A DNA stretch of 64,000 nucleotides from Desulfocapsaceae bacterium. Lineage in GTDB: Bacteria; Desulfobacterota; Desulfobulbia; Desulfobulbales; Desulfocapsaceae. Numbering within the stretch: the stretch's first letter is position 1; each line of letters starts with the position of its first letter. Below the pieces are notes generated by a model. It saw only the letters and a list, made by a program, of their open reading frames with translations, searched no databases and had not been told where the DNA came from. Of this stretch, positions 1,432 to 32,162 are shown in pieces. Made by a program: the position numbers and the translations under genes. The stretch lies in assembly GCA_031292275.1 (NCBI GenBank), contig JARLHL010000048.1, forward strand, positions 1 to 64,000, read 5' to 3'.

Positions 1432-2169
1432 TCAGCAATGACGCATCGGAGAAACTGTAATTTTTACTCCATGGCCGGATATGTCCCTGATCTCGGAGAC
1501 AATCCTTACATTCAAGCTCTCTATCTCTTTTGAGAACCATTTTGGAGAATGATCACAATAAATTTCCAGTTTCCGGAACGACTGTTCCTTTAGAAAAGGG
1601 ATCAATATTTGCCTAGAGTTGAAATTTTGGCCGCTGTCCAGAGCATCCGCGAGATTAATCCGATAATATCCGTCATTCACATCCCCAACCAGCTCCGGTT
1701 TCGGGACAGCAGGACCAACCACACTCCATGTACTTCTCACAGCCTCAGCCGTGCTTTTCGCAGAGCGGTGGCAGCCGCCGCCGCAGCCTGACAAACCTTG
1801 CTCCTCCGGGGTCCTCTTCCAGGGATCCTCTTGAGAGCTGACGATCTCCGCCTCCTTTCGGGCCACATTATCCAGTTGTTCAGACAAGTCCCCTTCCGAC
1901 TTCCATGTACGGAGGCCCAGTTCTTCTAAAAAGACATTCAGCAGGCCTTTGGTTTCATGGACCAGGAAGACTTTGCAATCCCTCAATTGAGAGGCGACAT
2001 CGTTCAACGCCCTTTTCAATTCAGGAATTCCCATATTTTTGTTTATCTCAAGGGAGATTTCCTGCTTTCTCGTCCAGCGCCCCGAAATATTTTCAAAGAG
2101 ACAGACCGTCCCCTTCTCATACAAATTCACGACTTCCTGATGCTCATTGACAAAACTCGCAATCTTCAT
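1432..2169 (-). CDS. anfO: Fe-only nitrogenase accessory protein AnfO
   Basis: A 245-residue protein with the AnfO-type N-terminus MKIASFVNEHQEVVNLYEKG and the following LFE..SGRW segment, placed directly after anfK as in other anfHDGK operons. AnfO is needed for full Fe-only nitrogenase function in the organisms studied, with an undefined role in cofactor handling or assembly. A CGGGC motif at residues 129-133 (C129, C133, then H134) could bind metal or heme and sits in a low-complexity linker between the two halves. The start at 2169 is preceded by AGAGGT. The gap of 117 nt to anfK holds a hairpin. Recognised from the family N-terminus plus context. Confidence 0.85.
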   Translation of the reverse strand: MKIASFVNEHQEVVNLYEKGTVCLFENISGRWTRKQEISLEINKNMGIPELKRALNDVASQLRDCKVFLVHETKGLLNVFLEELGLRTWKSEGDLSEQLDNVARKEAEIVSSQEDPWKRTPEEQGLSGCGGGCHRSAKSTAEAVRSTWSVVGPAVPKPELVGDVNDGYYRINLADALDSGQNFNSRQILIPFLKEQSFRKLEIYCDHSPKWFSKEIESLNVRIVSEIRDISGHGVKITVSPMRHC

Positions 2170-2250
2170 ACCGACCTCTTTATTGCATGAAATTCCCGCA
2201 AAAGATGAATTGACATCTTTTTTTAAATATCGGACATCCCCGCAAGGAAG

Positions 2251-2272
2251 AACGCGTCGTGTCTCACGCGTT
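2251..2272 (-). other. Hairpin in the anfK-anfO gap
   Basis: An inverted repeat with arms AACGCG and CGCGTT separated by ten bases lies about 15 nt past the anfK stop, on the transcribed strand. It has no U tract after it, so it is more likely a processing or mRNA-stability hairpin than a terminator; this reading is inference. Confidence 0.35.
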
Positions 2273-2286
2273 TTCCTCGCCCGCCC

Positions 2287-3675
2287 TTACCAGACGTTGA
2301 GAATCCACTCCTTGTTTTTCTTGTACTCCATGTCGGTGAAAAGGGTGTTGGCCATCTGTTCAACCAGCCACATCGCCCCTGCATATCCGACAACCGGATG
2401 GCGATAGAGCCCTGCGCGATCATAGGTGGGAAAGCCGACCCGTACCATGGGAATGGTATTCTCAATGGCTGAATACCGGCCTTTGGAATGACCGAAAATC
2501 ATGTCCAGTTCGAGTCCCTGGTTCCTGATCCTGTCTTCCAGTTCCCAGAGGTCCGCATTGGTGATGATCTCCATGGGGAAATCGACGTTTTCCTGCAGCG
2601 CCTTGACCCGTGGATCGTTCCGGTAATTGGGGTTGTCGTCACCCAGAAGCAAAAGCACGGGCTTCATCTCCAGATCAAGGCAAAATTCCGCGATACCGAT
2701 GGCAAGATCGGGATTTCCGTAGATTGCCACCTTCTTGTCCGCCAGAAACATATGGGTGACATCGGTGATTGCATCCATGGCTATCCCGCGCTCCCGGACC
2801 AGGGATTCGGGAATCGGCTTACCGGTCAAGGTCATCAGATTCTGAAGAAAGGTATCGGTGTTACGGATGCCGATGGGTGTCGGCCCAAGAATGGCCGGCA
2901 CTCCGAATTCCTTTTCAAGATACAGGGCAGCCTTGCCTCCCTCATACCTGTTCAGGGCTATCGTACCGATGGCATTCGCCGTTCCGGACAGATCCTCGAC
3001 GGTTGTGTCGCCATGCGAGACAAAGTTTCCGTAGGGCATCAGCGGCGAGTCGAAGTTTTCGATCTCAAAGAGGACGGTGGCATCGATCCGCATTTCGGCC
3101 AGCAAATGCTTGAGGGCAGTCACGTCCCCGGGATTGACCCAGCCGGTAATAAGATTCAGTTTCCCGTCAGGCTCGGTCTTCTTTGCAAAATAGGTGACAA
3201 AATCCCGGACCGCGACATCGTAGCCGCTCACCATGCTGCCGACAAAACTCGGGGTATGGATCGGAATGAGGTGGACCTCCCTGCCGGGGTATTTCTCCTT
3301 CAGCAGACCGGCATTGAGCTTGTTGACCACACCGTCGATATCGTCGCCGATGATCTCCGTCGAGCAGGTCGAGATGATCGGGATGACCTTTACATCCGGA
3401 TACCGCATCAACAATACATCGACCGCCTCTTCGACACGTTTGACGGCGCCGAATACCGCCCCCTCCTCATGGACGGAAGATGAGGCAATCTCAAAACTTT
3501 CCTTGAAATGCTGCGATATCAGCAGCCGAACGAACATGACGCAGCCCTGCCCGCCATGCACGATCCCGATGCAGTCCTTAACGCCTATACTGACAAACTG
3601 GGCGCCGCAGGGCTGACAGGTGAATATCGGGTTGATACATCCGCCACGCGTCTTTTCTTTCACGTCACAAAGCAT
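2287..3675 (-). CDS. anfK: Fe-only nitrogenase FeFe protein, beta subunit AnfK
   Basis: A 462-residue protein, the same length as Azotobacter AnfK. The P-cluster cysteines are visible as C20 (FTCQPCGAQ), C45 (GGQGC) and C104 (ISTCSTEIIGDD). With AnfD and AnfG it forms the heterohexameric catalytic component that reduces N2 with obligate and generous H2 production. The start was set at 3675 (MLCDVKEKT) because AAGGAG lies seven bases upstream and the length then fits the family; a start six codons earlier would place a foreign MRRSGV in front. It begins 14 nt after the anfG stop. Confidence 0.95.
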   Translation of the reverse strand: MLCDVKEKTRGGCINPIFTCQPCGAQFVSIGVKDCIGIVHGGQGCVMFVRLLISQHFKESFEIASSSVHEEGAVFGAVKRVEEAVDVLLMRYPDVKVIPIISTCSTEIIGDDIDGVVNKLNAGLLKEKYPGREVHLIPIHTPSFVGSMVSGYDVAVRDFVTYFAKKTEPDGKLNLITGWVNPGDVTALKHLLAEMRIDATVLFEIENFDSPLMPYGNFVSHGDTTVEDLSGTANAIGTIALNRYEGGKAALYLEKEFGVPAILGPTPIGIRNTDTFLQNLMTLTGKPIPESLVRERGIAMDAITDVTHMFLADKKVAIYGNPDLAIGIAEFCLDLEMKPVLLLLGDDNPNYRNDPRVKALQENVDFPMEIITNADLWELEDRIRNQGLELDMIFGHSKGRYSAIENTIPMVRVGFPTYDRAGLYRHPVVGYAGAMWLVEQMANTLFTDMEYKKNKEWILNVW

Positions 3676-3689
3676 GACACCACTCCTTC

Positions 3690-4034
3690 TCAATAATGCT
3701 GGTCGGTCAGCTCAAGATTGAGCGATCCGGTAATAGTCAGGTAATCCATTCGTTCGTGGAGACCCTGCATAATCTGTTTGATTTCCTCTTTGCTCATCGC
3801 GGCAAGCCAGGGGTACCGGCTTTTATAGGCCTCGGCCAGGCATACGGCGTCCACCCAGAAACACCGGTCTGTCGGTGTTTCAAGCTCCACGGCCTCCCCG
3901 CATAATATCTGCGTGGCCTTCGTCAGCACCCCCGCGTTTTGATCCTTTCTGTCCCAGGCCCGTGAATGGAACTGCCAGAGACAATTTTTCATGATGTAAT
4001 CCACAAGCTGTTCGATTTTCTCTTTCATATCCAT
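3690..4034 (-). CDS. anfG: Fe-only nitrogenase delta subunit AnfG
   Basis: A 114-residue protein matching the small delta subunit found only in the alternative (V and Fe-only) nitrogenases. Characteristic features are the N-terminal [23 protein letters not shown] segment (shown here in two parts: [12 protein letters not shown] and [11 protein letters not shown]) and the central [13 protein letters not shown] stretch. The delta subunit binds the outside of AnfD and is thought to help cofactor insertion or complex stability. AAAGGA precedes the start. It sits 11 nt after anfD and 14 nt before anfK, so the three are translationally close. Its presence excludes a MoFe enzyme. Confidence 0.94.
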
Positions 4035-4045
4035 GGTCTTTTCCT

Positions 4046-5611
<1,566 letters not shown>

Positions 5612-5631
5612 TCATTCCTCCTTGGCTGGTA

Positions 5632-6003
5632 TTACAAAATGGCCTTTTCGCCGGTCTCGTCGGTACGGACCCGGACAGCATCGTCAACCGGACAGACAAA
5701 AATCTTGCCGTCGCCTATCTGGGCCGTCTGATTCACCTTGATGATGGCCTGCACCACCGCGCCGACATCGGCATCGCGGACAACCAGGGAAAACAATCGC
5801 TTCGGAATGTATTTCATTCCCCGGGACTTCCCCTCTCCCTGCAGTTCCGCGGGAAGTTCGCAGTTGATCTCGTTGGCAATACCACGCTGCTTGCCCCGTC
5901 CGATGGCCGGCATGGCCGTGAGGCTCAAAAATCCCAGATTTTCGAGGGCATCCTTTGTCTTTCCCATCTTTCTTGGACGGATAATTGCTATTATTTCCTT
6001 CAT
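5632..6003 (-). CDS. nifI2: Nitrogenase-associated PII protein NifI2
   Basis: A 123-residue GlnB-family protein starting MKEIIAIIRPRKMGKTKDAL, with a long T-loop region (IGRGKQRGIANE, then an inserted stretch with PAELQGEGKSRGMKYIPKR) and the conserved GDGKIFVCPVDDAVRVRT end. The longer T-loop marks it as NifI2 rather than NifI1. In methanogens NifI1 and NifI2 form a complex that binds and inhibits the dinitrogenase until 2-oxoglutarate relieves it. Here the pair lies between anfH and anfD, the usual place. The ribosome site AAAAGGATGAG is the 3' end of the 103-nt repeat at 6012-6114. Confidence 0.92.
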   Translation of the reverse strand: MKEIIAIIRPRKMGKTKDALENLGFLSLTAMPAIGRGKQRGIANEINCELPAELQGEGKSRGMKYIPKRLFSLVVRDADVGAVVQAIIKVNQTAQIGDGKIFVCPVDDAVRVRTDETGEKAIL

Positions 6004-6011
6004 ACTCTCAT

Positions 6012-6114
6012 CCTTTTATATGAAAGTCTCGATTTGATGCTGGCCGTGCCATACTGAAATGACGAGATTTCATATTTCGTTGAGACTGGTCATTCCGGTC
6101 CAGCCATGCTGGTT
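6012..6114 (-). repeat. 103-nt intergenic repeat, copy A (nifI1-nifI2 gap)
   Basis: Copy A of a 103-nt sequence, also at 18089-18191 and 33291-33393, alignable over its full length without gaps. By eye it is roughly 88 percent identical to copy B and more distant from copy C. In the sense direction it starts AACCAGCATGG at the nifI1 stop codon and ends CATATAAAAGG, supplying the nifI2 ribosome site. The 3' half pairs TATGAAATCTCG with CGAGACTTTCATA (one bulge). It fills the whole nifI1-nifI2 gap. Confidence 0.85.
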
Positions 6115-6430
6115 AAAGTCCTGTCTCGCCGGTGCGGACGGTAAAAACCTGATCCACCGGGGTGACGAAAATTTTGCCGTCTCCGAAGTTGCCGGTATAG
6201 GCCTTATATTTGATAAGCTTGATGACCTCCTCGACGTGTTTATCCTCGACCACCATCAGGAGCATCACCTTGGGCAGCTCATCATAATGGATCGTGCCAA
6301 CCGTGATACCTTTCTGCTTGCCGCGGCCGAAGGCGCTGAGTTTCGTCATCGAGAAAAATCCCATTTCCGCCAACCCGTCTGCGACACTGTCCGCAGCATC
6401 GGGACGTACTATTGCTTTGATCATTTTCAT
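6113..6430 (-). CDS. nifI1: Nitrogenase-associated PII protein NifI1
   Basis: A 105-residue GlnB-family protein starting MKMIKAIVRPDAADSVADGL, with the short T-loop (AFGRGKQKGITVGTIHYDELPK) seen here as AFGRGKQKGI and VGTIHYDELPK, and the conserved GDGKIFVTPVDQVFTVRTGE end. NifI1 acts with NifI2 in 2-oxoglutarate-dependent switch-off of nitrogenase. The frame is open upstream into anfH, but the real start is 6430: the family length fits and GGGGGTT-type purines precede it. The stop codon TAA shares two bases with repeat copy A. It lies 25 nt after anfH. Confidence 0.92.
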   Translation of the reverse strand: MKMIKAIVRPDAADSVADGLAEMGFFSMTKLSAFGRGKQKGITVGTIHYDELPKVMLLMVVEDKHVEEVIKLIKYKAYTGNFGDGKIFVTPVDQVFTVRTGETGL

Positions 6431-6455
6431 AGGGGGTTGTCCTTTCAGTCTGGTG

Positions 6456-7343
<888 letters not shown>

Positions 7344-7868: not shown

Positions 7869-9521
7869 TCACTTCCGCTTTGACCGTGCAGGCGGCATCT
7901 CCCGGCGAAATTCCTTATAGGTAATCTTGTATTTTTTCATGCGCAATCCCATGGTCCGGCGGGTAAGCCCCAGTTCATCGGCAGACTCGGTGGCATTGCC
8001 CTGATGCAGCCGCAAGGCTTCAACCAGCATTTCATATTCCATGGATGCCAGCTTGGCATCAAGGCCGCCCTGGATTTCCGTTCCGGAGAAAACCGGAGAC
8101 TGCAGGGATAAAGGAAGATTATACCCGTGAATTGCATCGTCCTCCGTGAGAATGACCGCACGCTGTATCACATTTTCCAGCTCGCGGACATTGCCCGGCC
8201 AATGATAATGCATGAGCATATTGAGTGCAGACGTCGTAATTCTGCTTATTTTCTTCTCGTTTTCCTTTGAAAAACGCAAAACAAAATGTTCTGCCAAGGT
8301 GATGATATCGCTTCCTCGATCACGTAAAGGAGGAATCAGCAGAGGAAAGACATTGAGACGAAAAAAAAGATCCTGCCTGAAGGTTCCGTTGTCTACCATT
8401 TCGGTGAGATTTTTATTGGTGGCGGCAACAATGCGGATGTTGACTGTCACAACTTTATTGCCTCCTACGCGTTCGAAGGCCCTTTCCTGCAATACGCGCA
8501 GGAGCTTCGCCTGAACCCCGAGCGAGAGTTCGCCGACCTCATCGAGAAAAATCGTCCCTCCGTCTGCCTCCTCAAAACGCCCCTTTCGCAACTGGGTCGC
8601 ACCGGTAAAGGATCCTTTTTCGTGGCCGAAAAGCTCACTTTCCAGGATACTCTCCGGCAGGGCCGCGCAGCTGAATTTCACCATCGGCCCATGGGGATTA
8701 GGGCCTTCAAAGTGAATCGCATTGGCAATCATTTCCTTGCCGACACCGCTTTCCCCAAGCAGAAGCACCGTCGTCTTCGTTTTGGCGACCTTGTGCAGGA
8801 GAGCGAAGACTTCCATCATCGCCTTTGATGAGCCGATGATATTTGCCGGCATGAACCGCGCCCGCAATTCCTCGACCAATGCCCGATGGCGTTGCTCCCA
8901 AAGAACCTTATCCACATTTTCGACAAGGTACAGTTCAACCGCCTGGGCCAGTGTGTAGGAGACAACCATCAGTGTATCAACGTGTTTCTCCAGCAGTTCT
9001 TTGTTGTCGTAGCGGCGAATCGCACTGATGCTGCCGAGCACTTTTTTCCCGCGCAATATCGGCACGCAGAGAAAGGCATGATCACGGTCCTCCGGCCGAG
9101 AAAGACATCCCGTCCTGTTAAGAAAAGCCGGTTCTTCCCCAATACACGGCACAATTATGGGTTTTGCCGATTCAACTACCTGCCCGGTAATGCCTTCTCC
9201 GGAGAAATATATTCCCCTGGCCTGCTCCTCTTCGGTCAAGCCCATGCATTTGTGAATAAATATCCGGCCGGTCTCCCGGTGATGGAGGTTAATCATGGCT
9301 CGCTCGACCGCCATGTCGCTGTGCATATAATCAAGGAAAGTCTGAAGCGCGAGAGACAGATCGTTGTATTCCGATAAAGATCTCCCCATTTCGAAGAGCA
9401 AGGGTACGATTTTTCCTCTGCAGACTCCTGCATGGCATTCTTTCACAAGCGGATTATTCTGCTTATAAACACCAAAATGGCATTCCTTACTGGCAGCATT
9501 TTTTTGATTATTGTTCTTCAT
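7869..9521 (-). CDS. anfA: Sigma-54-dependent transcriptional activator AnfA (NifA/VnfA family)
   Basis: A 550-residue enhancer-binding protein. The N-terminus carries C14, C29 and C34 within a repeated KECH.GV motif, as expected for the Cys-rich sensor tips of AnfA and VnfA. A GAF domain follows (about 45-200), then the AAA+ domain with Walker A GESGVGKE (256-263) and the sigma-54 contact loop ELFGHEKGSFTGA (296-308), and a C-terminal Fis-type helix-turn-helix (NATESADELGLTRRTMGLRM). It should activate the anfH operon from distal sites. The gene is 55 nt after tonB on the same strand, so it may be read through from the transport operon. AnfA rather than NifA is chosen from the Cys-rich N-terminus and adjacency to anfH. 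Confidence 0.85.
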   Translation of the reverse strand: MKNNNQKNAASKECHFGVYKQNNPLVKECHAGVCRGKIVPLLFEMGRSLSEYNDLSLALQTFLDYMHSDMAVERAMINLHHRETGRIFIHKCMGLTEEEQARGIYFSGEGITGQVVESAKPIIVPCIGEEPAFLNRTGCLSRPEDRDHAFLCVPILRGKKVLGSISAIRRYDNKELLEKHVDTLMVVSYTLAQAVELYLVENVDKVLWEQRHRALVEELRARFMPANIIGSSKAMMEVFALLHKVAKTKTTVLLLGESGVGKEMIANAIHFEGPNPHGPMVKFSCAALPESILESELFGHEKGSFTGATQLRKGRFEEADGGTIFLDEVGELSLGVQAKLLRVLQERAFERVGGNKVVTVNIRIVAATNKNLTEMVDNGTFRQDLFFRLNVFPLLIPPLRDRGSDIITLAEHFVLRFSKENEKKISRITTSALNMLMHYHWPGNVRELENVIQRAVILTEDDAIHGYNLPLSLQSPVFSGTEIQGGLDAKLASMEYEMLVEALRLHQGNATESADELGLTRRTMGLRMKKYKITYKEFRREMPPARSKRK

Positions 9522-9576: not shown

Positions 9577-10503
9577 TCAGTATGATAATTTAAATTTAAC
9601 AGGCAGAACGACCCAGACTGCAACGGCCTCACCCTGATAACGGCCAGGAGTAAATTTCCATTTGTAGATTGCTTCGAGTGCGCTTTGTTCAAATATTTCC
9701 TTAGGTTCTGCCTCAATTACAGAGGCCTTGTCTACATTTCCATCTGCCTTCACTAGAAATCGTAAAACAACTCTCCCACCAACACCTAACCGGCGTGCCG
9801 CAAATGGAAATTCAGGTTCAACTGTGTGGGTAGGAATTGGTGGTTGATCAGCTTGTTTTAGAGAAAATTCCGCTGATGCCAAAAAAGTTTTAGCAGATGA
9901 AGTCCCACCACCTGCAATTCCAGAATTGCCCTGATCCTTGGGAATAGTTTTAATTTCATCTTTTGGAACGCCTTCTTTCCCGCGCTCAATGGCGTTTCCA
10001 TCACCTTGAGGGAGAAATTGATCGACGGGAGGAGTTGAGGGTGCTGAAACAGTTTTTAAATTCCCTCCGGTTCTCTTCCTTAAAGTAATGTCATCCGCTA
10101 TCCTTTTTTTGTTTCCGGTGAAGTCATGCCGTTTCAAGAGGTTTACTTTTTGGAGAGTGGAAATTGGCGGATTCTGAATGTCTTTCTCCCCCTTGTTTTT
10201 ATTGAATTGAGTTTGCACTTCAACAATATCTTCTCCTGGGTAAACCAGGCTAAGGGTGATAGAAGATTGTGTCTTCCCGGCTTGAAAGGTTGAAAAATAG
10301 GGAATCAATAAAATATAAAGGACGACGATGGCGTGGACCCCAACTGATATCCTTGCACCTATCAATATCCCCCGCCCCCGCAAAATACGGGGACGAAGAG
10401 AGGCGATACCATCTTCATGGCAGATTGTCCAAGAGGGCGCATCGTCAAGAATCAAAGAGTCTGTACTTTCCTGTATCATTCCATGATGCCATGTTTGCAA
10501 CAT
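9577..10503 (-). CDS. tonB: TonB family protein
   Basis: A 308-residue protein with a cytoplasmic head of about 46 residues, one membrane segment (about 47-70, ISVGVHAIVVLYILLIPYF), a long linker that is less proline-rich than usual, and a TonB C-terminal domain (PEFPFAARRLGVGGRVVLRF ... AIYKWKFTPGRYQGEAVAVW, given in pieces). It should couple the inner-membrane proton motive force to the outer-membrane receptor encoded four genes upstream. ExbB and ExbD are not in the window. It starts 150 nt after the binding protein gene and ends 55 nt before anfA. Confidence 0.85.
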   Translation of the reverse strand: MLQTWHHGMIQESTDSLILDDAPSWTICHEDGIASLRPRILRGRGILIGARISVGVHAIVVLYILLIPYFSTFQAGKTQSSITLSLVYPGEDIVEVQTQFNKNKGEKDIQNPPISTLQKVNLLKRHDFTGNKKRIADDITLRKRTGGNLKTVSAPSTPPVDQFLPQGDGNAIERGKEGVPKDEIKTIPKDQGNSGIAGGGTSSAKTFLASAEFSLKQADQPPIPTHTVEPEFPFAARRLGVGGRVVLRFLVKADGNVDKASVIEAEPKEIFEQSALEAIYKWKFTPGRYQGEAVAVWVVLPVKFKLSY

Positions 10504-10653
10504 TTATCTCTTTATACCAGCGTCACCTCAATTATCTATACCCCTGCGGATATTGTAAGCTGGTATATGATCAAGGTATGGAGGAGATGAGGCCCATCCT
10601 GGATTACGTCGGGTTCTCCTTTTTCCAAAATTAAATCAGTACCTTTTACCCCA

Positions 10654-11688
10654 CTATTTGCTTGCGGGAGTTTGCGGGGCATGGGGACCTCCTGCAAGAA
10701 TTTCCTCAACTTGCGTCTTCGATAAGGAAGCTTCGAAAATGTCGTTGTAGAAACCTCTCGTTTCGGCTACCACGTCAACATTACGGAACAGTCCGGGGTG
10801 AAACTGTTTCGCCGCCCACAAGACAGTAAGTGGTTGTTCTGACGTGCGGTTTCCCCAAGTATGGGCTCCACAAGGAACTACCAAAATTCTTCCAGTTCGC
10901 ACGGCTTTGAGGCCATCAAAGCGCGGTTCACGCTTCAACTCGGCAACCTCTTCTTGGCTGGAAACAATCAGAATATCAGGGTCCCAGGCCAGTAATTGCT
11001 CCATTGTAAAACTGCGTGATTCAATATTCCGGTTATCATCGGTAACACTTTCGCCGCCTGCAGTACGAATCCACCATTCGGCGACCAAGTGCGGCTGGGT
11101 TAGCGTAGTCGGATTAAAATAGAGTACTCGCGGGCGTGTCGGAGAGCCGTTCTGATCTAGTATTTTGGCAATCCGTTCCAAGGTTGAATCAAAACGTTTG
11201 GCATAGCGCTCAGCGGCCTGAGGCTTATCAAAAAGTTGGCCCAGCAGTCGTACAGCTTCCTTAACATCCTCCGGTTGACGCCAAGCAAGATATACTGCTG
11301 AAAGACCGGCTCGGCGCATACTGTCGGCACTCGCCTGATCCATGGTCAGAACGACGTCGGGTGCTGCTCTCAATAATGCTTCGAGGTTCGGCGTGTGATC
11401 ATGGTTGTCCATTGACGGCAACGCCGAAATATTCGGCGCGAACACCATTTGGTAAGCATAGCGAGGTCTTTTCGCCCAGTCCGGCAGGCCATTGATGATG
11501 CAATTCCCTTTGCCGATTGCAAATACCAGGCTGTTCAGCACCGGTACCGGGCCGACAGTGGCAACCTGCTCGACCCGTTCGGGCAGCGTCACCGTGTTGC
11601 CTGCCATGTCGGTTATTACACGTGCCGACGCGGCGTCCAACGGTTGTACAGAGAGGATGAAAAGAAGGACGAGAATTCTACTTAGCAT
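10654..11688 (-). CDS. Periplasmic metal or metal-chelate binding protein (BtuF/FepB/MolA class)
   Basis: A 344-residue class III solute-binding protein. A signal peptide (MLSRILVLLFILSVQPLDA) precedes the family opening RVITDMAGNTVTLPERVEQV. Later hallmarks are LEALLRAAPDVVLT and the long backbone helix leading to the C-terminal lobe with DPDILIVSS. This class binds vitamin B12, siderophores, heme or, in the MolA branch, molybdate and tungstate. Sequence alone does not fix the ligand; the adjacent modE-type regulator and anf genes favour Mo or W, free or chelated. AAAGGA lies ten bases before the start, 18 nt after the ATPase gene. Confidence 0.82.
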   Translation of the reverse strand: MLSRILVLLFILSVQPLDAASARVITDMAGNTVTLPERVEQVATVGPVPVLNSLVFAIGKGNCIINGLPDWAKRPRYAYQMVFAPNISALPSMDNHDHTPNLEALLRAAPDVVLTMDQASADSMRRAGLSAVYLAWRQPEDVKEAVRLLGQLFDKPQAAERYAKRFDSTLERIAKILDQNGSPTRPRVLYFNPTTLTQPHLVAEWWIRTAGGESVTDDNRNIESRSFTMEQLLAWDPDILIVSSQEEVAELKREPRFDGLKAVRTGRILVVPCGAHTWGNRTSEQPLTVLWAAKQFHPGLFRNVDVVAETRGFYNDIFEASLSKTQVEEILAGGPHAPQTPASK

Positions 11689-11706
11689 ACTGAATTCCTT
11701 TATTTT

Positions 11707-12471
11707 TTAAAGTCGAGGCATGTAAGCTGCCGGAACACCTTGGTGACTGATTACATCTACTGGAGTGCCGTAGAGCATAGCCAGCATTTCCGGCTGGAGT
11801 ATGTCCACAGCCAAACCCGAAGCAGCAATTCTACCACCCATGAGAGCAGCGACACGCGCTCCAAGCAGTAAGGCGTGTTCCGGTTGATGGGTGGTAACCA
11901 GCACCGTCATGCCATCAGCAGCGAGATCACGGATGGTGCGCAGCACGCGTGCCTGATTACCAAGATCAAGGCCAGCGGTCGGCTCATCCATAAGGAACAG
12001 GCGCGGTGCCTGCGCCAGGGCGCGTGCAATAAGTGTAAGCTGTCGCTCTCCTCCGCTAACCTGGTTAAACGGACGCCCAGCAAGATGGGCAATTCCAACC
12101 CGTTCTAAGGCTGTCAAGGCGAGATGTTCATCATGCTTCCCCGGATGCGACAGCGGTGGCAAATGAGGCGTACGCCCCATAAGCACGGTGTCGAGCAGCG
12201 TCAGCGCGCTATCACTCGCAGATTGTGGGACGTAGGCAAGTTTACGCGCCAGCGCGCGAGGTGCTCTTTGGGTTTGGCCGGCAATGCGTACGCTACCGCA
12301 TTCAAGGTGCAAGGCACCGATCAAACAGCGCAGCAAGGTGGTTTTGCCGGTGCCATTGGGTCCAAGCAGACAGAGAATCTCGCCCGCACCCAACGCTAGG
12401 TCTATACCGTCAAGCACCGGGGGCTGTCCGGGGACTCGGCGATAGACCAGACCTTCCACTCTTAAAACCAT
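11707..12471 (-). CDS. ABC transporter ATP-binding protein (FecE/BtuD/MolC type)
   Basis: A 254-residue ATPase with Walker A GPNGTGKTT (37-45), Q-loop YVPQSA, signature VSGGE (138-142), Walker B LFLMDEP (158-164) and H-loop VTTHQPEH. The frame is open 33 codons further upstream, inside the permease gene, but the start MVLRVEGLVY at 12471 gives the family length and a 10-nt overlap with the permease stop, a sign of translational coupling. It powers the BtuC-type permease. Confidence 0.9.
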   Translation of the reverse strand: MVLRVEGLVYRRVPGQPPVLDGIDLALGAGEILCLLGPNGTGKTTLLRCLIGALHLECGSVRIAGQTQRAPRALARKLAYVPQSASDSALTLLDTVLMGRTPHLPPLSHPGKHDEHLALTALERVGIAHLAGRPFNQVSGGERQLTLIARALAQAPRLFLMDEPTAGLDLGNQARVLRTIRDLAADGMTVLVTTHQPEHALLLGARVAALMGGRIAASGLAVDILQPEMLAMLYGTPVDVISHQGVPAAYMPRL

Positions 12472-13499
12472 TGCCGTTTCCCTTTCGCCAGTACAGCGAC
12501 GAAGACCGGGGCCCCGAGTATGGCTGTTGCAATACCTAACGGCAGTTCTGACGAGAAGGCGCTGCGGCAAAAATCGTCTACCAGGAGTAAATAGCCAGCG
12601 CCGAGCAAGACCGAGGCCGGAAGCAAAACCGCATAGGCTGGGCCAACAATGAGGCGGGCGAGATGCGGTACGAGCAGCCCAACCCAGCCGACGATACCAG
12701 ATATGCTTGTCACTGCCGCCGTCATGAGTGTCGCGGCAACGATCAATACTAGACGCAAATTACCAACCGGCACACCAAGTGTGCGAGCCTCGTCGTCCCC
12801 GGCCTCCAGCACTTGCGTCGGCCAGCGCAATAGAAAAAGCACTGCCATGCCAGTTAAGGTGAATGGTGCAGCCCAAGCCAAGTCGTGACTACTAACCCGA
12901 CCAAGCCCGCCTAGCAGCCAGAAAACGATTGTCGGCATCGTATCAACCGGATCTGCGACATATTTCAATGCCGAAGTAAGGGCTTGGAAGAGGGCTGAAA
13001 CAACCATCCCTGAGAGCACAAGAACCAGAACCGAACCGCGCCCCAGGCGGCCAGCGATAAACATTGCAGAACCGACGGCGACGATGCCCCCGACAAAAGC
13101 CGAACCTTGTACCGCCATAGCGCTGCCATGAAGTAACATTGCCAGTGCAGCGCCAAAACCGGCACCAGCTGAGACACCGAGAATGGCCGGAGCAGCAAGA
13201 GCGTTACGGAATAACGTTTGATAGCAGACTCCTGCACCGGCCAGGCAGGCACCAACCAGCATGGCCGAGAGCACTCGTGGTAAGCGAACAGCCAGTACTA
13301 CGTTATGTACAGCTTGAGACTGGCCAGACGGAATGCCGGTGATTGCCGACCGGAAAACGTCTAGCACTGCCGCTGATGGCAGCTGATAGTGGCCAAGCCT
13401 CATTGACGCAACGCCGGCCGCGATGACGGCAATTGACAACAACACCAGGAAGCCGGGGCCACGACACCGTGAAATGGGAACACTTTTCTTTACGCGCAT
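12462..13499 (-). CDS. ABC transporter permease (FecCD/BtuC/MolB type)
   Basis: A 345-residue, very hydrophobic protein with about ten membrane segments and FecCD family signatures (VRLPRVLSAMLVGACLAGAG, GVSAGAGFGA, GLLVPHLARL). It forms the membrane channel with the ATPase. The start is put at the ATG at 13499 with GAGGCGG just upstream; the frame also allows a TTG five codons earlier. It begins 20 nt after the receptor stop, so the operon is tightly packed. Confidence 0.9.
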   Translation of the reverse strand: MRVKKSVPISRCRGPGFLVLLSIAVIAAGVASMRLGHYQLPSAAVLDVFRSAITGIPSGQSQAVHNVVLAVRLPRVLSAMLVGACLAGAGVCYQTLFRNALAAPAILGVSAGAGFGAALAMLLHGSAMAVQGSAFVGGIVAVGSAMFIAGRLGRGSVLVLVLSGMVVSALFQALTSALKYVADPVDTMPTIVFWLLGGLGRVSSHDLAWAAPFTLTGMAVLFLLRWPTQVLEAGDDEARTLGVPVGNLRLVLIVAATLMTAAVTSISGIVGWVGLLVPHLARLIVGPAYAVLLPASVLLGAGYLLLVDDFCRSAFSSELPLGIATAILGAPVFVAVLAKGKRQWF

Positions 13500-13519
13500 A
13501 TCCGCCTCGCTCAACCGGC

Positions 13520-15736
13520 TTAGTACTTCACGCTCACCGTCATCGCCACCGTCATTGGCGCACCGGCATAATAGGCTGTAGCGCCATTCAGATTGGTATC
13601 GTTTGGCACAATTTCAGCGATGTAATGACTGTTGAACAGGTTCAATACGCTCAGTTTAAGCAAAATATCGTGACTGAATGTGTAACTGGCATTGAAGTCA
13701 AAAGCGGTATAACCGGCAACCGGCTGGGTTTCAGCCGAATCCCCGTAGCGCTTTCCGATATATCGTAGGACAGGCGACAAAGTGAGATTATACCAACGAT
13801 AGGAAACGCCACCTTTCAACATGAAATTCGGGGCGTTAGGGATCTGTTTCCCCTGAGTGGCCAACACAGCCCCCCCGCTCAAGGTCGGGGTATTCTGGTC
13901 GTAGGTTTCGGAAGCTAAGGTTCCCGAACCGAATATTGACCAGGAATTATCTATAATGTATTCCGCTTCGAGTTCAGTGCCATATTCAGTAGTCTCGGCA
14001 GTTCCTTCGTAGTATGACAGCCCACCGAGTGAAGGGTCGACGACCTGGACTTGGCGGTTTTGGTTTTTCGCTGCAAATATTGTCGGGACCAGAGTCAGAC
14101 CATTGCTCTTATAACGGGCGCTTATATCGATTTGATCAGATAATTCAGGCTTTACGAGGTTAACAAGAGACTGCAGGGTGATGTTTTTGGCAACAAATGC
14201 GGATTCATTGCTGATGTAATTGCTTGCTTGCGGTCCCCAGTCCGGACGACCGAACTTGCGACTGTAAGATGCACTGACACTCCATTCGGAATTAAGGTTC
14301 TCGCGAATGCCGATGTTAGGCAGGAAGCTCCTGTAATCTTTCGCGACTACGGAAGCATTGGTGTCAGGCGCAGGATTGTAAGCCCAAATTTGATCGTAGG
14401 ATACATCCGGCAAGTTAGCGGTCTTGAAGTACTGCATTTTTGGCGCACCGAGGTCCATGTATCTGACGCCCCCGCTCAAGACCGTCTGGCCGAGGGTTTC
14501 TGTGGCCTGAACATAGGGGCTATTGACGATAAAATTATCAATCTTGGCAAGTGTCCCCCATTTGGCGAATGCGAGCCCCCCATTAGACGTTACCGTATAC
14601 AGAGTCTGATCCGTCGGGGGAGGAGGGGGTTCCATGGATTCCAGCCAGTACCCTGCGACGATGTTTGTACTGGTTCCAAAGCGGCCTTGGTATTCCAACA
14701 CGCCGCCTGCATTATTGTTCTGCTGGTTCCAAATCTGGACATTCGATCCGTTGGCGGAATATTGTACTCCGTTGTCATTCCAGTAGTACGGTTTCAAAAT
14801 AAGATGTTGGCCTTGGGCCATAGTGACATCGATATTTGCCAAGGCCGCATAATTTTCGTATTCAACTTTATTAAAATTGTAATAATTAACGTCTGTCGCG
14901 GCCTTACCGGTTAACGATGTGTTGTAGTCATAATTGTAATTTGTACTCAACGCCTGTGTCTGTGCATACGTTAATGAGCGATAAGAATTACCAGAGTATT
15001 TATCGTAGACTACATCGAAATCAACCTTGACCTGGTCGCCAAGTTTTTGTGTCACCCCCAGCATTGCATTATTTCGCAGCTCATCTCCTGCGCCCTTCCA
15101 CTTATCGGCAGTCGTTGTTGAACCGGAGATGAAAGCTGCTGTTCCACTGCTATTCAAGACGCCGGTATCGACACGGCCAAACGTTCTGCTGAAATGGAAG
15201 GATCCAAGCGATTGTTTTGCCAAGACGCTGAACGTATCTTGTGGACCAAGTATTTGCTGATCAACCGCCCCCGAGGCATTCGATACTCCGAGTCCTTGGT
15301 TGGCCGATAATCCCCCGCGATACACATCAATCTGATCAATATTTTCAAGGTCGAAGAGATAGGCACCGCCTACAATTCCTGTCAAAGGCAAGCCTTGGAC
15401 ATCGTTTGTTAAATGAAAATTACTTTTTCCCCGAATATTGATGTTGCCGGTTGGGCTGAGTCCATAAGGATCCGGGCTTTCTACAATAACCGACGGCATC
15501 AGGATCAGCGGGTCATAGGGCCTGGCCTGGCCTGGACCTCCGAGTAAGTTTATGCCTGCTTTGGTGACACTGCTCTTCGGTGTCGGCTGAGGATCGGATA
15601 CCATTACTTCCGACTTGGCCGCTGCCCCTGAAACAACTACTTCAGGTAAGGTGGTGTCGTCAGCAGCAGAAACTTTTGGTGTAATCGCTAAGCTGAAGGC
15701 AATCGCAACCAGGAAGGGTTTGTGTAAATTTTGCAT
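13520..15736 (-). CDS. TonB-dependent outer-membrane receptor
   Basis: A 738-residue receptor. It has a signal peptide ending near VSAADD, a TonB box (about TLPEVVVSG), a plug domain with NINIRGKSNFHLTNDVQG and IDQIDVYRGG, then a 22-strand-type barrel with alternating aromatic strands and the closing VAMTVSVKY with C-terminal aromatic for BAM recognition. The start is the ATG at 15736 with CAGGAG eight bases upstream. The cargo is unknown: the neighbours point to a molybdenum, tungsten or iron complex. It lies 15 nt after the radical SAM gene. Confidence 0.9.
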   Translation of the reverse strand: MQNLHKPFLVAIAFSLAITPKVSAADDTTLPEVVVSGAAAKSEVMVSDPQPTPKSSVTKAGINLLGGPGQARPYDPLILMPSVIVESPDPYGLSPTGNINIRGKSNFHLTNDVQGLPLTGIVGGAYLFDLENIDQIDVYRGGLSANQGLGVSNASGAVDQQILGPQDTFSVLAKQSLGSFHFSRTFGRVDTGVLNSSGTAAFISGSTTTADKWKGAGDELRNNAMLGVTQKLGDQVKVDFDVVYDKYSGNSYRSLTYAQTQALSTNYNYDYNTSLTGKAATDVNYYNFNKVEYENYAALANIDVTMAQGQHLILKPYYWNDNGVQYSANGSNVQIWNQQNNNAGGVLEYQGRFGTSTNIVAGYWLESMEPPPPPTDQTLYTVTSNGGLAFAKWGTLAKIDNFIVNSPYVQATETLGQTVLSGGVRYMDLGAPKMQYFKTANLPDVSYDQIWAYNPAPDTNASVVAKDYRSFLPNIGIRENLNSEWSVSASYSRKFGRPDWGPQASNYISNESAFVAKNITLQSLVNLVKPELSDQIDISARYKSNGLTLVPTIFAAKNQNRQVQVVDPSLGGLSYYEGTAETTEYGTELEAEYIIDNSWSIFGSGTLASETYDQNTPTLSGGAVLATQGKQIPNAPNFMLKGGVSYRWYNLTLSPVLRYIGKRYGDSAETQPVAGYTAFDFNASYTFSHDILLKLSVLNLFNSHYIAEIVPNDTNLNGATAYYAGAPMTVAMTVSVKY

Positions 15737-15751
15737 CAAAGTCTCCTGATG

Positions 15752-16813
15752 TTATTTAAGAAAGATTGGCGTAAGGCCAAGTTCATCGAGATAGCGAGTT
15801 ATTTGCTGCATTTTGTTATGGACAGCGACGCGCTCGTTTACCGTAATGACATGGCCCTCTCCAGTGCCCTTCCCCTGTGGGACTCTCATTGAAACGGACG
15901 CTCCGAGCACTTGGTTTCCACCTCCGGCAAGCCACCATAAAGGGAGGTCGTCAGGGCTATTACCTGCCGCCAGGCCTAAATCAATGGTTGGCAAGAGTAA
16001 ACGGGCAACAGCAATGAGACGTGCAACCGGCCAGGGTGAGCAGCGTACTCCGCCAGCTGTAGCATTTGGAAAGGGTATAAAACGTGAGAAACGGAGATGA
16101 CGCAGCATGGAAAAGCGACGCAGGAATATGAGGTGGGCAATCCGATCTTCATCCGATTCCCCAAGACCAACCAATATCATCGAACGAATCGGCATTCCTT
16201 CCTCTTCACAAATCTCCATCAGGCGGATCCGTCCGCTCAAACTGTCGCCTGGTTTATAACGCTCAAACAGATTAGAGTTGAAGACCTCAAGGGAACTTGT
16301 AACTGCCACGACGCCGAGTTTCTGCAAGGCACGTACACCTTTCCGCGTCAGTGAAGGACCGACATTTACCTCAATTTCCATATCTACCGCATCCTTAATA
16401 GCCGAAACCAAATCAATCATCTGGCTGTCATAACCGCTAAAAGCCGCTCCCTCTGTAGCCAGCCGAGAACCACCGGAGAGGTGCAGATGGCGGATTCCAA
16501 GACTGGCAATAGCCTGCGCAGCAGCGACAATGTCTTCAATCTCAGCCGCTGAGCGAGTGAAAAAAGTACAGTAGGTACACGATGGTTCGATTTCACAGGG
16601 TGTTATAGCGGAAATACCAGCCGACCACCATGGACTACTGCCAAGGTTGAGGTCACGAATGGTGGTTGCAATTTTGAAAAGATTTGCAGCAAAAGAAGGA
16701 TCGGCAGAGAGGCTATAAAGATCAAGCAGATTCTTTTCGGTGTAACCCTCCGGCAATCCCTTCTCATCAAAACATGATTGCAGAAACAATGTTGCAGATT
16801 CGATACTTTTCAT
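15752..16813 (-). CDS. BioB/HmdB-like radical SAM enzyme, CX5CX2C type
   Basis: A 353-residue radical S-adenosylmethionine protein. The iron-sulfur ligands are C73, C79 and C82 in CEIEPSCTYC, the unusual CX5CX2C spacing reported for HmdB of the Hmd-hydrogenase cofactor pathway instead of the common CX3CX2C. The rest is a BioB/ThiH-like TIM barrel (LGIRHLHLSGGS, EIEVNVGPSL, MILVGLGESDEDR). It heads the transport operon, with GGAG eight bases before the start and divergence from modE. A small organic ligand or cofactor made or modified by this enzyme could be what the transporter carries, but that is inference. It is not biotin synthase on sequence spacing or context. Confidence 0.8.
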   Translation of the reverse strand: MKSIESATLFLQSCFDEKGLPEGYTEKNLLDLYSLSADPSFAANLFKIATTIRDLNLGSSPWWSAGISAITPCEIEPSCTYCTFFTRSAAEIEDIVAAAQAIASLGIRHLHLSGGSRLATEGAAFSGYDSQMIDLVSAIKDAVDMEIEVNVGPSLTRKGVRALQKLGVVAVTSSLEVFNSNLFERYKPGDSLSGRIRLMEICEEEGMPIRSMILVGLGESDEDRIAHLIFLRRFSMLRHLRFSRFIPFPNATAGGVRCSPWPVARLIAVARLLLPTIDLGLAAGNSPDDLPLWWLAGGGNQVLGASVSMRVPQGKGTGEGHVITVNERVAVHNKMQQITRYLDELGLTPIFLK

Positions 16814-17015
16814 TAAAGACTCCGCGGATATTTATTGAACGATATTTTCTGACTCCTCTTAGCTCAAACTGTTTAACCTGGTACTCTTTCCTGGAACGCA
16901 TAGCCCACGCGCCTCATCGGCAGCAAATAAAAGCATCAAGTTTGTCCTGGGGTGGCACTATCGTCAATTACCTTCCCGGATGTTAATTATTTCGGGCTTG
17001 AGTATCAGAACAATT

Positions 17016-17041
17016 CAATATGTTTTTATATATATAACGAT
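17016..17041. promoter_or_regulatory. Candidate ModE operator 1
   Basis: TATGT-N7-TATAT followed by AACGAT. This fits the E. coli ModE pattern TATAT-N7-TAYAT flanked by CGT and AACG, with a complete right half-site and one mismatch in the left core. The surrounding DNA is AT-rich, so chance agreement is possible. Confidence 0.4.
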
Positions 17042-17078
17042 GAGCATAATATTAAATGTCCACTATACAAGCACGTTA

Positions 17079-17102
17079 CGTTATGTCAATAATAACATAT
17101 CA
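17079..17102. promoter_or_regulatory. Candidate ModE operator 2
   Basis: CGT-TATGT-N7-AACAT. The left half-site is close to the E. coli ModE consensus (CGT TATAT) and the right core has one mismatch from TACAT. It lies 38 bp from the core of candidate 1, so two dimers could bind about four turns apart. Confidence 0.35.
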
Positions 17103-17680
17103 GTCAGTTTGCCAATCCCTATAACGAAAAAAGGAGCACTATATCTCATTCTTTTCGTATATTTATTCTTTGTTTTCGCTATACATAAAGGGAATAACGC
17201 AATACGGCAAAGATTATTACAAACGCCAAAATAACTTTTCCAAATTAATGGTCTGTCATAAAGATAAAATATCTTAAACCTTGTTTATCCCAATGGTCCG
17301 TCAATTCACTCCAGCTTTTGCCCATTCTCTTTACTGGCATCTGTTCATGCTATTTATCTAAGCAAAAAGGAGGCCAAGTAGGTATGATATGTCAATATGG
17401 GTGGAAAAACAGTCTATTAGAATTTGCTTGCCTACTTAATCTACCGAGAAAGGATTTCTACGGACATTTTTGTAGAGTATGTTTGTCGCATTTGTAGCAA
17501 TAACGACAAATTGGTACGCAGATCATCTCCTCTTTCTAAGCTCAAAAAAGATGCAAAGGAGAATATCATGATGCTAAACTTCATTGTTTCTACCAATAAA
17601 GTTATAACGTATCATTCTCAGGACAGAATTATTTCCTGATTTTTTGCATATGTCCCCCAATTCAATAGCAAAGGTATATT

Positions 17681-18133
17681 TTGCCTAAAATTAATAAAAA
17701 ATCCATTCGGAAAAGCGCATTAGCTTCTGGGCCGACCAACGCATGCCAAATGCAGATCAAGGGACGGATTTGGGTGGAGCGAAATGGTATAACCTATCTT
17801 TCCTGGGCAAGGATTGAATTACTCGGATTCATAGAAGAAAAGGGATCTGTGTCAGCGGCTGCTCGGGAAATGAAGATGAGCTATCGGCATGCCTGGGGGC
17901 TGATTCATGAAATGAATCAGCTTGCACCCGCTCCCTTGGTGGAAACAGCGGTCGGAGGCAAAGGAGGCGGGGGGGCCAGACTGACTACAACCGGTAAACA
18001 GGCGGTTGTCGATTTCTGGCAAATGGTCAAAAACTTCCAACAATGGCTTGAACTACAGAAAATATCAGAAAATAAAGGTGATTCTCCTAACCAGCATGGC
18101 CAGACCGGAATGACCAGCCTCAACAAAACATGA
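17681..18133 (+). CDS. modE: ModE-type winged-helix regulator without a molybdate-binding domain
   Basis: A 150-residue protein with the ModE N-terminal domain: strand GRIWVERNGITYLSW, helix-turn-helix GSVSAAAREMKMSYRHAWGL (56-75) with IHEMNQ after it, and the wing VGGKGGGGARLTTTG (91-105). Classic ModE has a further pair of Mo-binding TOBE/MOP domains; they are missing here, as in several bacterial short ModE proteins, so metal sensing would need a partner protein. The start is a TTG with AAAGG about seven bases upstream. The last 15 or so codons come from repeat copy B. It is divergent from the transport operon and is its likely regulator. Confidence 0.85.
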   Translation: MPKINKKSIRKSALASGPTNACQMQIKGRIWVERNGITYLSWARIELLGFIEEKGSVSAAAREMKMSYRHAWGLIHEMNQLAPAPLVETAVGGKGGGGARLTTTGKQAVVDFWQMVKNFQQWLELQKISENKGDSPNQHGQTGMTSLNKT

Positions 18134-25981: not shown

Positions 25982-27055
25982 ATGGCAGACACAGTAAACA
26001 AAACTCTGATCCCGCGACTTGATCGACGCGGCTTCCTCAAGGGTTGCACCATGGCTGCAGCTGCTCTGGGTCTCTCTGAGACAATGGTCCCGAAACTCGT
26101 TGAGGCCGCAACCACAGCACAGCGCCCCCCAGTGGTTTGGCTGCACTTTCAAGAATGCACAGGATGCACAGAGAGTCTGCTCCGCGCTTCCCATCCAGAC
26201 CTCGGACGTTTATTGCTCGACATTATTTCACTGGACTACCATGAGACCGTCATGGCGGCGGCAGGACATCAGGCAGAGCAGAACCTGAAAGACACCATCG
26301 AAAAGTACAACGGCAAGTTCCTCCTGGTGGTGGAAGGGGCTGTACCCACGAAAGACAACGGCATCTACTGCAAGATCGCCGGCAGGACCGCCATGGATAT
26401 CCTGGCAGATGTTGCCCCCAAGGCCGCTGCCGTCATTGCCATCGGGACCTGCGCCACCTTTGGCGGCGTCCAGGCAGCAGCACCGAACCCAACCGGCGCT
26501 GTCGGCGTGCAGACCCTGGTCAAAGGCCCGGTTGTAAATATCTCCGGCTGTCCTCCAAATCCCATCTCCCTGCTTGGAACCATCCTGCACTACCTAACCT
26601 TCAAACGGCTTCCGGCCCTCGACAGCCTTGGCCGGCCGCTCTTCGCCTATGGCCGCAGGAACCACGATCATTGCGAGAGAAGACCGCATTTCGACGAAGG
26701 CCGTTTTGTCGAGCAGTTCGGTGACGAGGCCCACAGACAGGCCTACTGTCTGTATAAGGTCGGCTGCAAGGGACCGGAGACCTTCGCCAGCTGCCCGTCG
26801 GTTCGCTTCAACGATGTCGGTGTCTGGCCGGTCAGCGTCGGACATGGATGCATCGGCTGTACCGAACCGAATTTCTGGGATACCATGACCCCCTTCTACG
26901 AGAGACTGCCCAACGTCAAGATCCCGGGATCAGGCATTGTTGCAGACGCTGACAGTGTCGGCAAGAAGGTCCTGGGCATTACCGCCGCCGCCGTCGGTAT
27001 CCATGCCGCGGTGGGGATCGGCAAACGCCTGATCAAGGGCAAGGACGAGAAATAG
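25982..27055 (+). CDS. [NiFe] hydrogenase small subunit, Tat-exported, membrane-anchored
   Basis: A 357-residue group 1 uptake hydrogenase small subunit. The twin-arginine signal is RRGFLK (15-20). Proximal [4Fe-4S] ligands are C59 and C62 (ECTGCTES), C157 (GTCATFGG) and C190 (SGCPPNP). Distal and medial ligands lie in HDHC, YCLYKVGCKG, ASCP and GHGCIGCTEPNFWD. The extra cysteines of O2-tolerant enzymes are absent (glycine at both places), so it should be oxygen-sensitive. A C-terminal hydrophobic segment (VLGITAAAVGIHAAVGIG) anchors it at the membrane. It carries electrons from H2 to the cytochrome b. HynB, HupS and HyaA are all used as names. Confidence 0.95.
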   Translation: MADTVNKTLIPRLDRRGFLKGCTMAAAALGLSETMVPKLVEAATTAQRPPVVWLHFQECTGCTESLLRASHPDLGRLLLDIISLDYHETVMAAAGHQAEQNLKDTIEKYNGKFLLVVEGAVPTKDNGIYCKIAGRTAMDILADVAPKAAAVIAIGTCATFGGVQAAAPNPTGAVGVQTLVKGPVVNISGCPPNPISLLGTILHYLTFKRLPALDSLGRPLFAYGRRNHDHCERRPHFDEGRFVEQFGDEAHRQAYCLYKVGCKGPETFASCPSVRFNDVGVWPVSVGHGCIGCTEPNFWDTMTPFYERLPNVKIPGSGIVADADSVGKKVLGITAAAVGIHAAVGIGKRLIKGKDEK

Positions 27056-27170
27056 GCCGAAGGCCCTGGCACTGTCCAATCTGACAGATATGAAATAAAA
27101 TTATCTGCAGCGGAGATCAGGAAAACCTGCCCGGTGCACGATATTCCAATACTTTATGGAGGTTCCACAC

Positions 27171-28871: not shown

Positions 28872-28930
28872 AAAATGGCTCCATACTCAACCGACTCTTT
28901 TTCTTTCGGTGATACCGCTAGGAGGTTACT

Positions 28931-29575
28931 ATGACGTACGAAAAACAAAAATGCTGGAGCATCCTGCTCCGCCTCTATCATTGGAGCTTCGCCCTCTCCA
29001 TCGTTTTTCTGGTGGCAACGGGCATCTATATCAACTTTCCCTGGTCAAATACCCTGCAGTTGGGAACAGGATCCTTTCCTGTGGCCTGGGTTCGCTATGT
29101 CCACTTTGTCGCCGGCTATGTCTTTACGGCGGCTGTGCTGGCAAGGATCTTTTTGTATATCTTCGGCAATGCTCAGGAGAGAATCACGGACTGCCTCCCG
29201 ATATCGGGCCGCAACATCAGGAACCTGATAAAGACCCTGCTCCAGTACAGCTATATCAGCGATGAGCATGATGAACGGCTTGGGCATAATGTGCTGGCCG
29301 GCTGCACCTACATCATCACCATCATCGCCGCGGTCTTCCAGCTGGTCAGCGGCTTCTTCATGCTCTTTCCCGAGGCACACATCTGGCAGAGCTGGGGAGT
29401 GACCCTCTTCGGCAACCAGCAGGAAGCCCGCTTCATTCATCATCTGCTGATGTGGTGGTTTTTGATCTTTGCCGTGATCCATATCTACCTGGTTATCTGG
29501 AACGACGTAAATGGTCCGGAGGGACTTGTCTCCTCGATTTTCACAGGTGACAAATTCAAGCACAAAAAGGCATGA
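28931..29575 (+). CDS. Ni/Fe-hydrogenase b-type cytochrome subunit
   Basis: A 214-residue membrane protein of the HyaC/HupC family with four membrane helices. Candidate heme ligands include H17 (LYHWS), H58 (VRYVHFVAG) and histidines in RFIHHLLMWW and AVIHIYLV. It transfers electrons from the small subunit to the quinone pool. AGGAGG precedes the start. Its stop overlaps the hypF start by 4 nt (ATGA), so it is the last structural gene before the maturation set. Confidence 0.92.
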   Translation: MTYEKQKCWSILLRLYHWSFALSIVFLVATGIYINFPWSNTLQLGTGSFPVAWVRYVHFVAGYVFTAAVLARIFLYIFGNAQERITDCLPISGRNIRNLIKTLLQYSYISDEHDERLGHNVLAGCTYIITIIAAVFQLVSGFFMLFPEAHIWQSWGVTLFGNQQEARFIHHLLMWWFLIFAVIHIYLVIWNDVNGPEGLVSSIFTGDKFKHKKA

Positions 29576-31923: not shown

Positions 31924-32149
31924 AGGAAATCCCGATGACTTCTCAACGAGTCAGATCGCCACGGTCGACGCCGACGGCATCAGCAGGGACATCCGCCTGG
32001 ATGTGGTCGACCACTGGCCAGAGCTTGGAGATTATGTCATCGTCCATGCGGGCTTTGCCATTCACACGCTGGAGGCGGCCGAGGCCGAGGCCAATATCCG
32101 CCTGCTCAGGGAACTGGCAGCCGGGATGCCGGAAGAACTGCTGAAATAA
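31886..32149 (+). CDS. hypC: Hydrogenase assembly chaperone HypC
   Basis: An 87-residue HypC with the essential N-terminal MCLAIPMRV, whose cysteine (C2) holds the Fe(CN)2CO unit with HypD. The start is 31886, with GGAGGT eight bases upstream, inside the end of hypF; earlier codons in the frame belong to hypF in another reading frame. It is followed by hypD after 13 nt. Confidence 0.94.
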   Translation: MCLAIPMRVTKIEGNPDDFSTSQIATVDADGISRDIRLDVVDHWPELGDYVIVHAGFAIHTLEAAEAEANIRLLRELAAGMPEELLK

Positions 32150-32162
32150 GAGGAGTCCTCCG

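Follow-up and report, generated by a model that had tools for sequence, protein, structure and literature searches.

A putative ModE-controlled TonB-dependent molybdenum uptake operon beside the Fe-only nitrogenase genes of a Desulfocapsaceae bacterium

We analyzed a stretch of 64,000 nucleotides (the window) from contig JARLHL010000048.1 of a Desulfocapsaceae bacterium (assembly GCA_031292275.1), in which an uptake operon on the minus strand lies head to tail with anfA and the Fe-only nitrogenase genes. Judging from its genes, the sites upstream of it, and its relatives in other genomes, the operon probably encodes a ModE-repressed importer of the TonB/MolBC type that takes up a chelate of molybdenum (Mo), or of tungsten, and whose expression is coupled to the control of the Fe-only nitrogenase. 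Open reading frames and family models give the following genes, in which SAM stands for S-adenosylmethionine, ABC for ATP-binding cassette, and HTH for helix-turn-helix:

15752..16813, minus strand: radical SAM enzyme, HcgA/HmdB-like, first gene of the operon (PF04055, 50 bits)
13520..15739, minus strand: TonB-dependent outer-membrane receptor, probable ATG at 15736 (PF00593, 93.5 bits; plug PF07715 weak)
12462..13514, minus strand: FecCD/BtuC-type permease (PF01032, 257 bits)
11707..12570, minus strand: open reading frame of the ABC ATPase (PF00005), probable ATG at 12471, overlapping the end of the permease gene
10654..11688, minus strand: periplasmic binding protein, MolA-related (PF01497)
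9577..10503, minus strand: TonB protein (PF03544, 76.9 bits)
7869..9521, minus strand: anfA, sigma-54-dependent activator with GAF and HTH_8
1432..7283, minus strand: Fe-only nitrogenase cluster of anfH, a P-II gene (PF00543), anfD, anfG, anfK, and anfO, in this order downstream of anfA (NCBIfam equivalogs above cut-off)
17681..18133, plus strand: HTH-only ModE paralogue, divergent from the uptake operon (TIGR00637, 89 bits)

An earlier note on this DNA had described this gene set and order, with a divergent modE-type gene, anfA directly downstream, and an Fe-only nitrogenase beside the operon, and all of this is borne out by the open frames and family matches. Large gaps are absent from the minus-strand run between the radical SAM gene and anfA; tonB and anfA are 55 bases apart, and no intrinsic-terminator-like site was found in this gap. 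The anfH, anfD, anfG, anfK, and anfO products all pass their NCBIfam cut-offs, and the nitrogenase is assigned as Fe-only because the ANFD model scored 1073 bits, above its cut-off of 873.8 and above the VNFD score. AnfA itself is 60 to 85% identical to the activators at most other anf clusters across 395 sampled genomes of the phylum, which include those designated G188, G236, G275, G408, and G329 below.

The gap between the modE gene and the operon contains three sites of interest:

17062..17089, minus strand: sigma-70-like promoter TTGACA-16-TATAGT, 11/12 matches and the best of the region, a consensus match only
17014..17041: ModE-box-like palindrome TTCAATATGTT-N6-TATATAACGAT, 24.4 bits by the matrix described below, 16/20 to the consensus
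17175..17201: second ModE-box-like site TTCGCTATACA-N5-GAATAACGCA, 16.4 bits by the matrix

A strict exact ModE-box pattern gave zero matches in the genome, and therefore a scored palindrome search was used. When scored against the E. coli-type ModE consensus, the site at 17014-17041 was the best of the window (p 0.005-0.007 against shuffles). With a matrix constructed from eight ModE-like boxes, all of them from other genomes, the two best sites of the whole 64 kb were 17014-17041 and 17175-17201, both in the modE/operon gap, and shuffling of the 350-base upstream region gave a p of 0.001 for the former. This main box lies just downstream of the predicted promoter. No Rfam family matched the window, and hence a molybdenum cofactor riboswitch was not detected.

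Similar boxes precede related transporter operons in other bacteria. At a threshold of 15 or more, where chance would give 0 to 0.4 sites per locus, sites were present directly before the receptor operons of Methylocystis MJC1 and Methylosinus C49, with a separate one in Methylocystis MJC1 before a flavin oxidoreductase gene adjoining the receptor operon, and before an operon of permease, ATPase, binding protein, and DUF364 genes in Paracoccus ferrooxidans. The G188 operon is preceded by two such sites; in G236 they stand before modDABC, which served as a positive control, and before the nifH/nifX/anfA operon. Across eight transporter operons, three negative or weak ones included (the G236 permease side, G408, and G275), the combined p was 3.7e-7. 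An adjacent Paracoccus receptor operon with a methyltransferase gene carries a weaker ModE-like site (14/20, L015 3821-3850), which suggests that two Mo-linked uptake operons may lie side by side in this organism.

The neighbors of the transporter also point to molybdenum. A match to the binding protein at E 1e-35 or better was found in only three other genomes of the 395 (G275, G408, and G236). In G275 and G408, a MoeA-type gene (matching both PF03453 and PF00994, with 60-74 bits each) stands after the permease, ATPase, and binding protein genes, and G408 additionally has a TonB receptor gene and a DUF364 gene downstream, while the G236 binding protein sits inside an Fe-only nitrogenase cluster whose receptor is 35% identical to that of the window. 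The motifs EWWI-x-x-AGG-x-SVT and H-x-W-x-NRT-x-EQPLT-x-LW are common to the MoeA-linked and window binding proteins. Clusters of anf genes occur in 8 of the 395 genomes, and in three of these eight (the window, G236, and G188) an FecCD importer adjoins anfA or lies a few genes from it; in two of the three, G188 and G236, modE-modD-modABC adjoins anfH. After its two boxes, G188 has on a single strand a class I methyltransferase-like frame, an unassigned frame, a DUF364 gene, a putative FmdE-like gene (with only weak similarity, to 2gvi), and then the receptor, TonB, binding protein, permease, ATPase, and anfA genes. Farther away, the window receptor is 45% and 43% identical to plasmid-encoded receptors of Methylocystis MJC1 and Methylosinus C49, which likewise lie beside ABC genes, and the permease is 45-53% identical to those of Methylocystis, Methylosinus, and Paracoccus and 42% identical to that of one archaeal operon. 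No nitrogenase genes were found within the stretches examined around the Methylocystis, Methylosinus, and Paracoccus transporters.

With a profile of the binding-protein orthologues, MolA (HI_1472, 3psa/3psh) was the third-best protein of the PDB (E 1.1e-35); the two above it carry no ligand in their names, so MolA is the best with a known ligand, and siderophore, heme, nickel, and B12 proteins rank below it. The FecCD permease, the ATPase, and the MolA-related PF01497 protein thus make up the MolBC-A-type component set. The predicted structure of the binding protein, with a predicted local distance difference test score (pLDDT) of 50, was too poor and was not used. TonB-dependent receptors usually take up complexes rather than free anions. 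Because the operon has a receptor and a TonB, the cargo is read as a complex, and we infer a chelate rather than the free oxyanion.

Could the complex be one of iron? A ferric siderophore or similar compound might be imported by a system recruited because the Fe-only nitrogenase needs much iron, with ModE control mirroring the need for the FeFe cofactor. The best NCBIfam match of the receptor is indeed TIGR01783 (TonB-siderophor), though at 106.8 bits it misses the cut-off of 223.5, and that of the permease is BtuC, though at 194.8 bits against 461; the binding protein misses the BtuF cut-off as well (26.1 against 234). In Azotobacter vinelandii, Fe-only conditions raise, via VnfA1, the expression of operons of TonB receptor and ABC genes and of an iron ABC operon (PMC9542535). 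Iron uptake does not account well for ModE-like boxes ahead of this transporter in Methylocystis, Methylosinus, and Paracoccus, whose examined stretches showed no nitrogenase gene, nor for the MoeA linkage in relatives or for MolA as the nearest relative of known ligand, and we regard it as unlikely. Tungsten, alone or together with molybdenum without discrimination, would fit the binding of both oxyanions by MolA (PMC4031551) and the existence of MoeA-transporter clusters for tungsten, moeA1-mobB-tupBCA (PMC13197769). The ModE boxes and the anf linkage favor molybdenum, the repressor metal of alternative nitrogenases, and leave either tungsten reading a small chance in our estimate.

Two forms of ModE are encoded in the genome. 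The one adjacent to the operon has 150 amino acids and only the HTH part, the Mop/TOBE domain being absent, and its 89 bits on TIGR00637 are under the cut-off of 98.5; its residues 40-121 match the solved structures of E. coli ModE (1b9m) and of the HTH-only protein 2ijl (135 amino acids). It retains the GGxGGGGxxLT element of the full-length ModE, which has two Mop stretches and is encoded next to modABC on another contig (C45). Contig C59 has a second ModA-type system, and contig C58 a further ModE-like gene of the HTH-only kind (L042 1314-1658). We also observed SBP_bac_6-like proteins that have the motif PCPVK/PCPLK close to their start, by Mo-type ABC genes of the window's genome (L041 213-1241) and in G236 by the anf-linked receptor (L034 12058-13044 and 15720-16739); an obvious signal peptide was not seen in these proteins.

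The first gene of the operon encodes a radical SAM enzyme whose best NCBIfam model is TIGR03957 (HmdB), at 124.9 bits and below the cut-off of 320.9, and whose structure model (pLDDT 75.6) has the HydE/BioB/PylB fold. Its cluster motif is CX5CX2C (C73-C79-C82), which is also present in four homologues and which has been described as unique to HcgA, the enzyme that forms a pyridinol from which the [Fe]-hydrogenase cofactor is built (PMC10100467). A scan of genome contigs and of a sample of 300 genomes from one archaeal phylum revealed three operons (L011, L022, and L023) that hold relatives 26-33% identical to the window enzyme, each with a PF01497-type binding protein, an FecCD permease, and an ATPase, in two gene orders; the enzymes of these operons score 127-164 on TIGR03957, also below 320.9. 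For a fourth relative (L012), a transporter was not seen beside the gene. By this comparison we take the pairing of enzyme and importer to be real, and because it recurs across domains, there is good evidence that the two act on the same compound.

It is plausible that the enzyme makes or alters the ligand, since it is HcgA-like, is paired with the same type of ABC importer in archaea, and has counterparts in relatives in the form of other small-molecule enzymes. Among the latter are a flavin monooxygenase near the importer, which has a ModE-like box to itself in Methylocystis and a weaker one in Methylosinus, and the methyltransferase-like frame of G188; such enzymes fit tailoring of a ligand and its breakdown alike. 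The product could instead be an HcgA-like pyridinol or other cofactor that has nothing to do with metal capture, the transporter then scavenging the cofactor or its precursor. That HcgA, with the same CX5CX2C motif, yields the pyridinol precursor of an iron cofactor (PMC10100467) and that the FecCD pairing exists in archaea without nearby Mo genes would agree with this. Yet most relatives have the transporter, ModE boxes, and moeA or anf without the radical SAM enzyme, and the enzyme misses the TIGR03957 cut-off, so that we hold a cofactor of this kind to be improbable.

The radical SAM gene was present in 0 of the 257 other genomes of the window's class, and scans with the single protein gave nothing in viral contigs, plasmids, 38 relatives, and the 395 phylum genomes; matches at 26-29% identity in the class search were discarded, as they carry a CX3CX2C motif and are biotin synthase-like. 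The combination of radical SAM enzyme, receptor, and short ModE that the earlier note proposed to look for in other genomes was accordingly not recovered, whereas the Mo- or W-linked uptake that it proposed is well supported by the ModE boxes, the linkage to MoeA and anf, and the relation of the binding protein to MolA. The conserved unit is the transporter with a ModE box, often with anf or moeA.

Several other features were observed around the anf genes. A HypB/UreG-like GTPase, possibly a metallochaperone, is encoded near anf-linked uptake genes at two loci (L034 11381-12067 and L058 876-1562, 75% identical). In G329, which belongs to a different family, the anf cluster shows 85-91% identity to that of the window and lies on a contig that ends just upstream of anfA (L052 3692-3782); no counterpart of the radical SAM gene or of the binding protein turned up in its genome sample. 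A small AIG2/cyclotransferase-like gene (PF13772) follows anfO in the window at 823-1380, and after anfO two other anf genomes likewise have a frame that starts similarly (L034 2727-3308 and L058 16131-16751). On the other side, about 8 kb past the modE gene, the window contains the small and large subunits of a NiFe hydrogenase with hypD (25982-33248).

Among the nearest described systems is MolBC-A of Haemophilus influenzae (HI1470-1472), an experimentally proven BtuCD-type importer of molybdate and tungstate (PMC4031551), which like the window operon combines a BtuCD/FecCD-type permease, an ATPase, and a PF01497 binding protein. The VnfA1-dependent operons of A. vinelandii (Avin_30860, 39890, and 47130), compared here by description only, resemble it in placing TonB receptor and ABC genes under alternative-nitrogenase control (PMC9542535), but they are activated by VnfA1 at sigma-54 promoters instead of being governed by a ModE box, and a radical SAM gene is unmentioned. 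HcgA/HmdB shares the CX5CX2C motif and is the family on which the window and archaeal proteins score best in NCBIfam; these proteins are nevertheless far under the equivalog cut-off, lack hmd/hcg neighbors, and have an ABC importer as partner. Finally, ModE-controlled modABC and anfA of diazotrophs follow the same logic, with Mo repressing Mo uptake and the activators of alternative nitrogenases (PMC9542535, PMC6925177), whereas the window has an HTH-only ModE gene next to a TonB/FecCD operon that lies head to tail with anfA. Import of the MolBC type and control by ModE are thus already known. When open-licence PubMed Central (PMC) papers were searched for a TonB receptor tied to molybdate or ModE, or for transporters together with HmdB or DUF364, no account came up of the arrangement seen here, a ModE-box TonB receptor line with an HcgA-like enzyme; because only open-licence papers were covered, this is weak evidence of novelty.

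A number of observations weigh against a ModE-controlled importer of a Mo chelate. Because the eight boxes of the matrix were initially picked with the E. coli-type consensus, the matrix depends on it in part, and the choice of upstream windows was settled once the first scan had been made. No ModE-like box stands in front of the G236 permease, G408 has none either, the one in G275 is weak, and none was found before the genome's own modEABC. The relation to MolA is distant, and siderophore-binding proteins and several iron-complex proteins score close behind; the comparison therefore lends molybdenum support short of proof. MolBC-A is itself distant in sequence and of low affinity for the free oxyanion, and a receptor, TonB, ModE box, or radical SAM gene is not described for it (PMC4031551). 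Mo genes were not seen near the archaeal operons. The genome already has ModABC and the second ModA-type system, and therefore the operon is not the sole route for Mo.

Mo is known to repress anfA both in A. vinelandii, where ModE sites are present in the anfA and vnfA1 promoters (PMC9542535), and in R. capsulatus, where it acts through MopA/MopB (PMC7294313, PMC6925177). We hypothesize that, when cytoplasmic molybdate is plentiful, full-length ModE would bind the promoter box and switch the operon off, and the HTH-only ModE may act with or against it at the box. Once Mo is exhausted, transcription of the operon would start and probably extend to anfA at its end. The receptor, powered by the operon's own TonB, would carry a Mo-loaded organic ligand over the outer membrane, and the MolA-related protein would hand the Mo complex to the FecCD/BtuCD-type ABC importer, while AnfA would concurrently turn on the Mo-free nitrogenase. 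In the cytoplasm, the HcgA-like radical SAM enzyme may act on the ligand, building it, tailoring it, or dismantling it to free the metal. A bolder extension, which we put forward as speculation and do not expect to hold in full, is that the operon stands for a new class of ModE-regulated, TonB-dependent uptake of a Mo metallophore, in which the HcgA-like enzyme alone makes, or cleaves after import, a small Mo-binding ligand of the pyridinol type, and of which hyperthermophilic archaea have an ancestral version free of the outer membrane.

Nitrogen fixers use Mo-binding chelators, and in the open-licence PMC papers searched, no description of an outer-membrane receptor for a Mo complex was found. 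The operon family provides specific candidates for the receptor and the binding protein, as well as an operator sequence, in several bacteria, methanotroph isolates included, and the question of a Mo receptor is therefore directly testable. The operon also joins Mo scavenging and the activator of a Mo-free nitrogenase in an apparent single transcription unit, and it suggests a new role for an HcgA-like branch of radical SAM enzymes common to archaea and bacteria.

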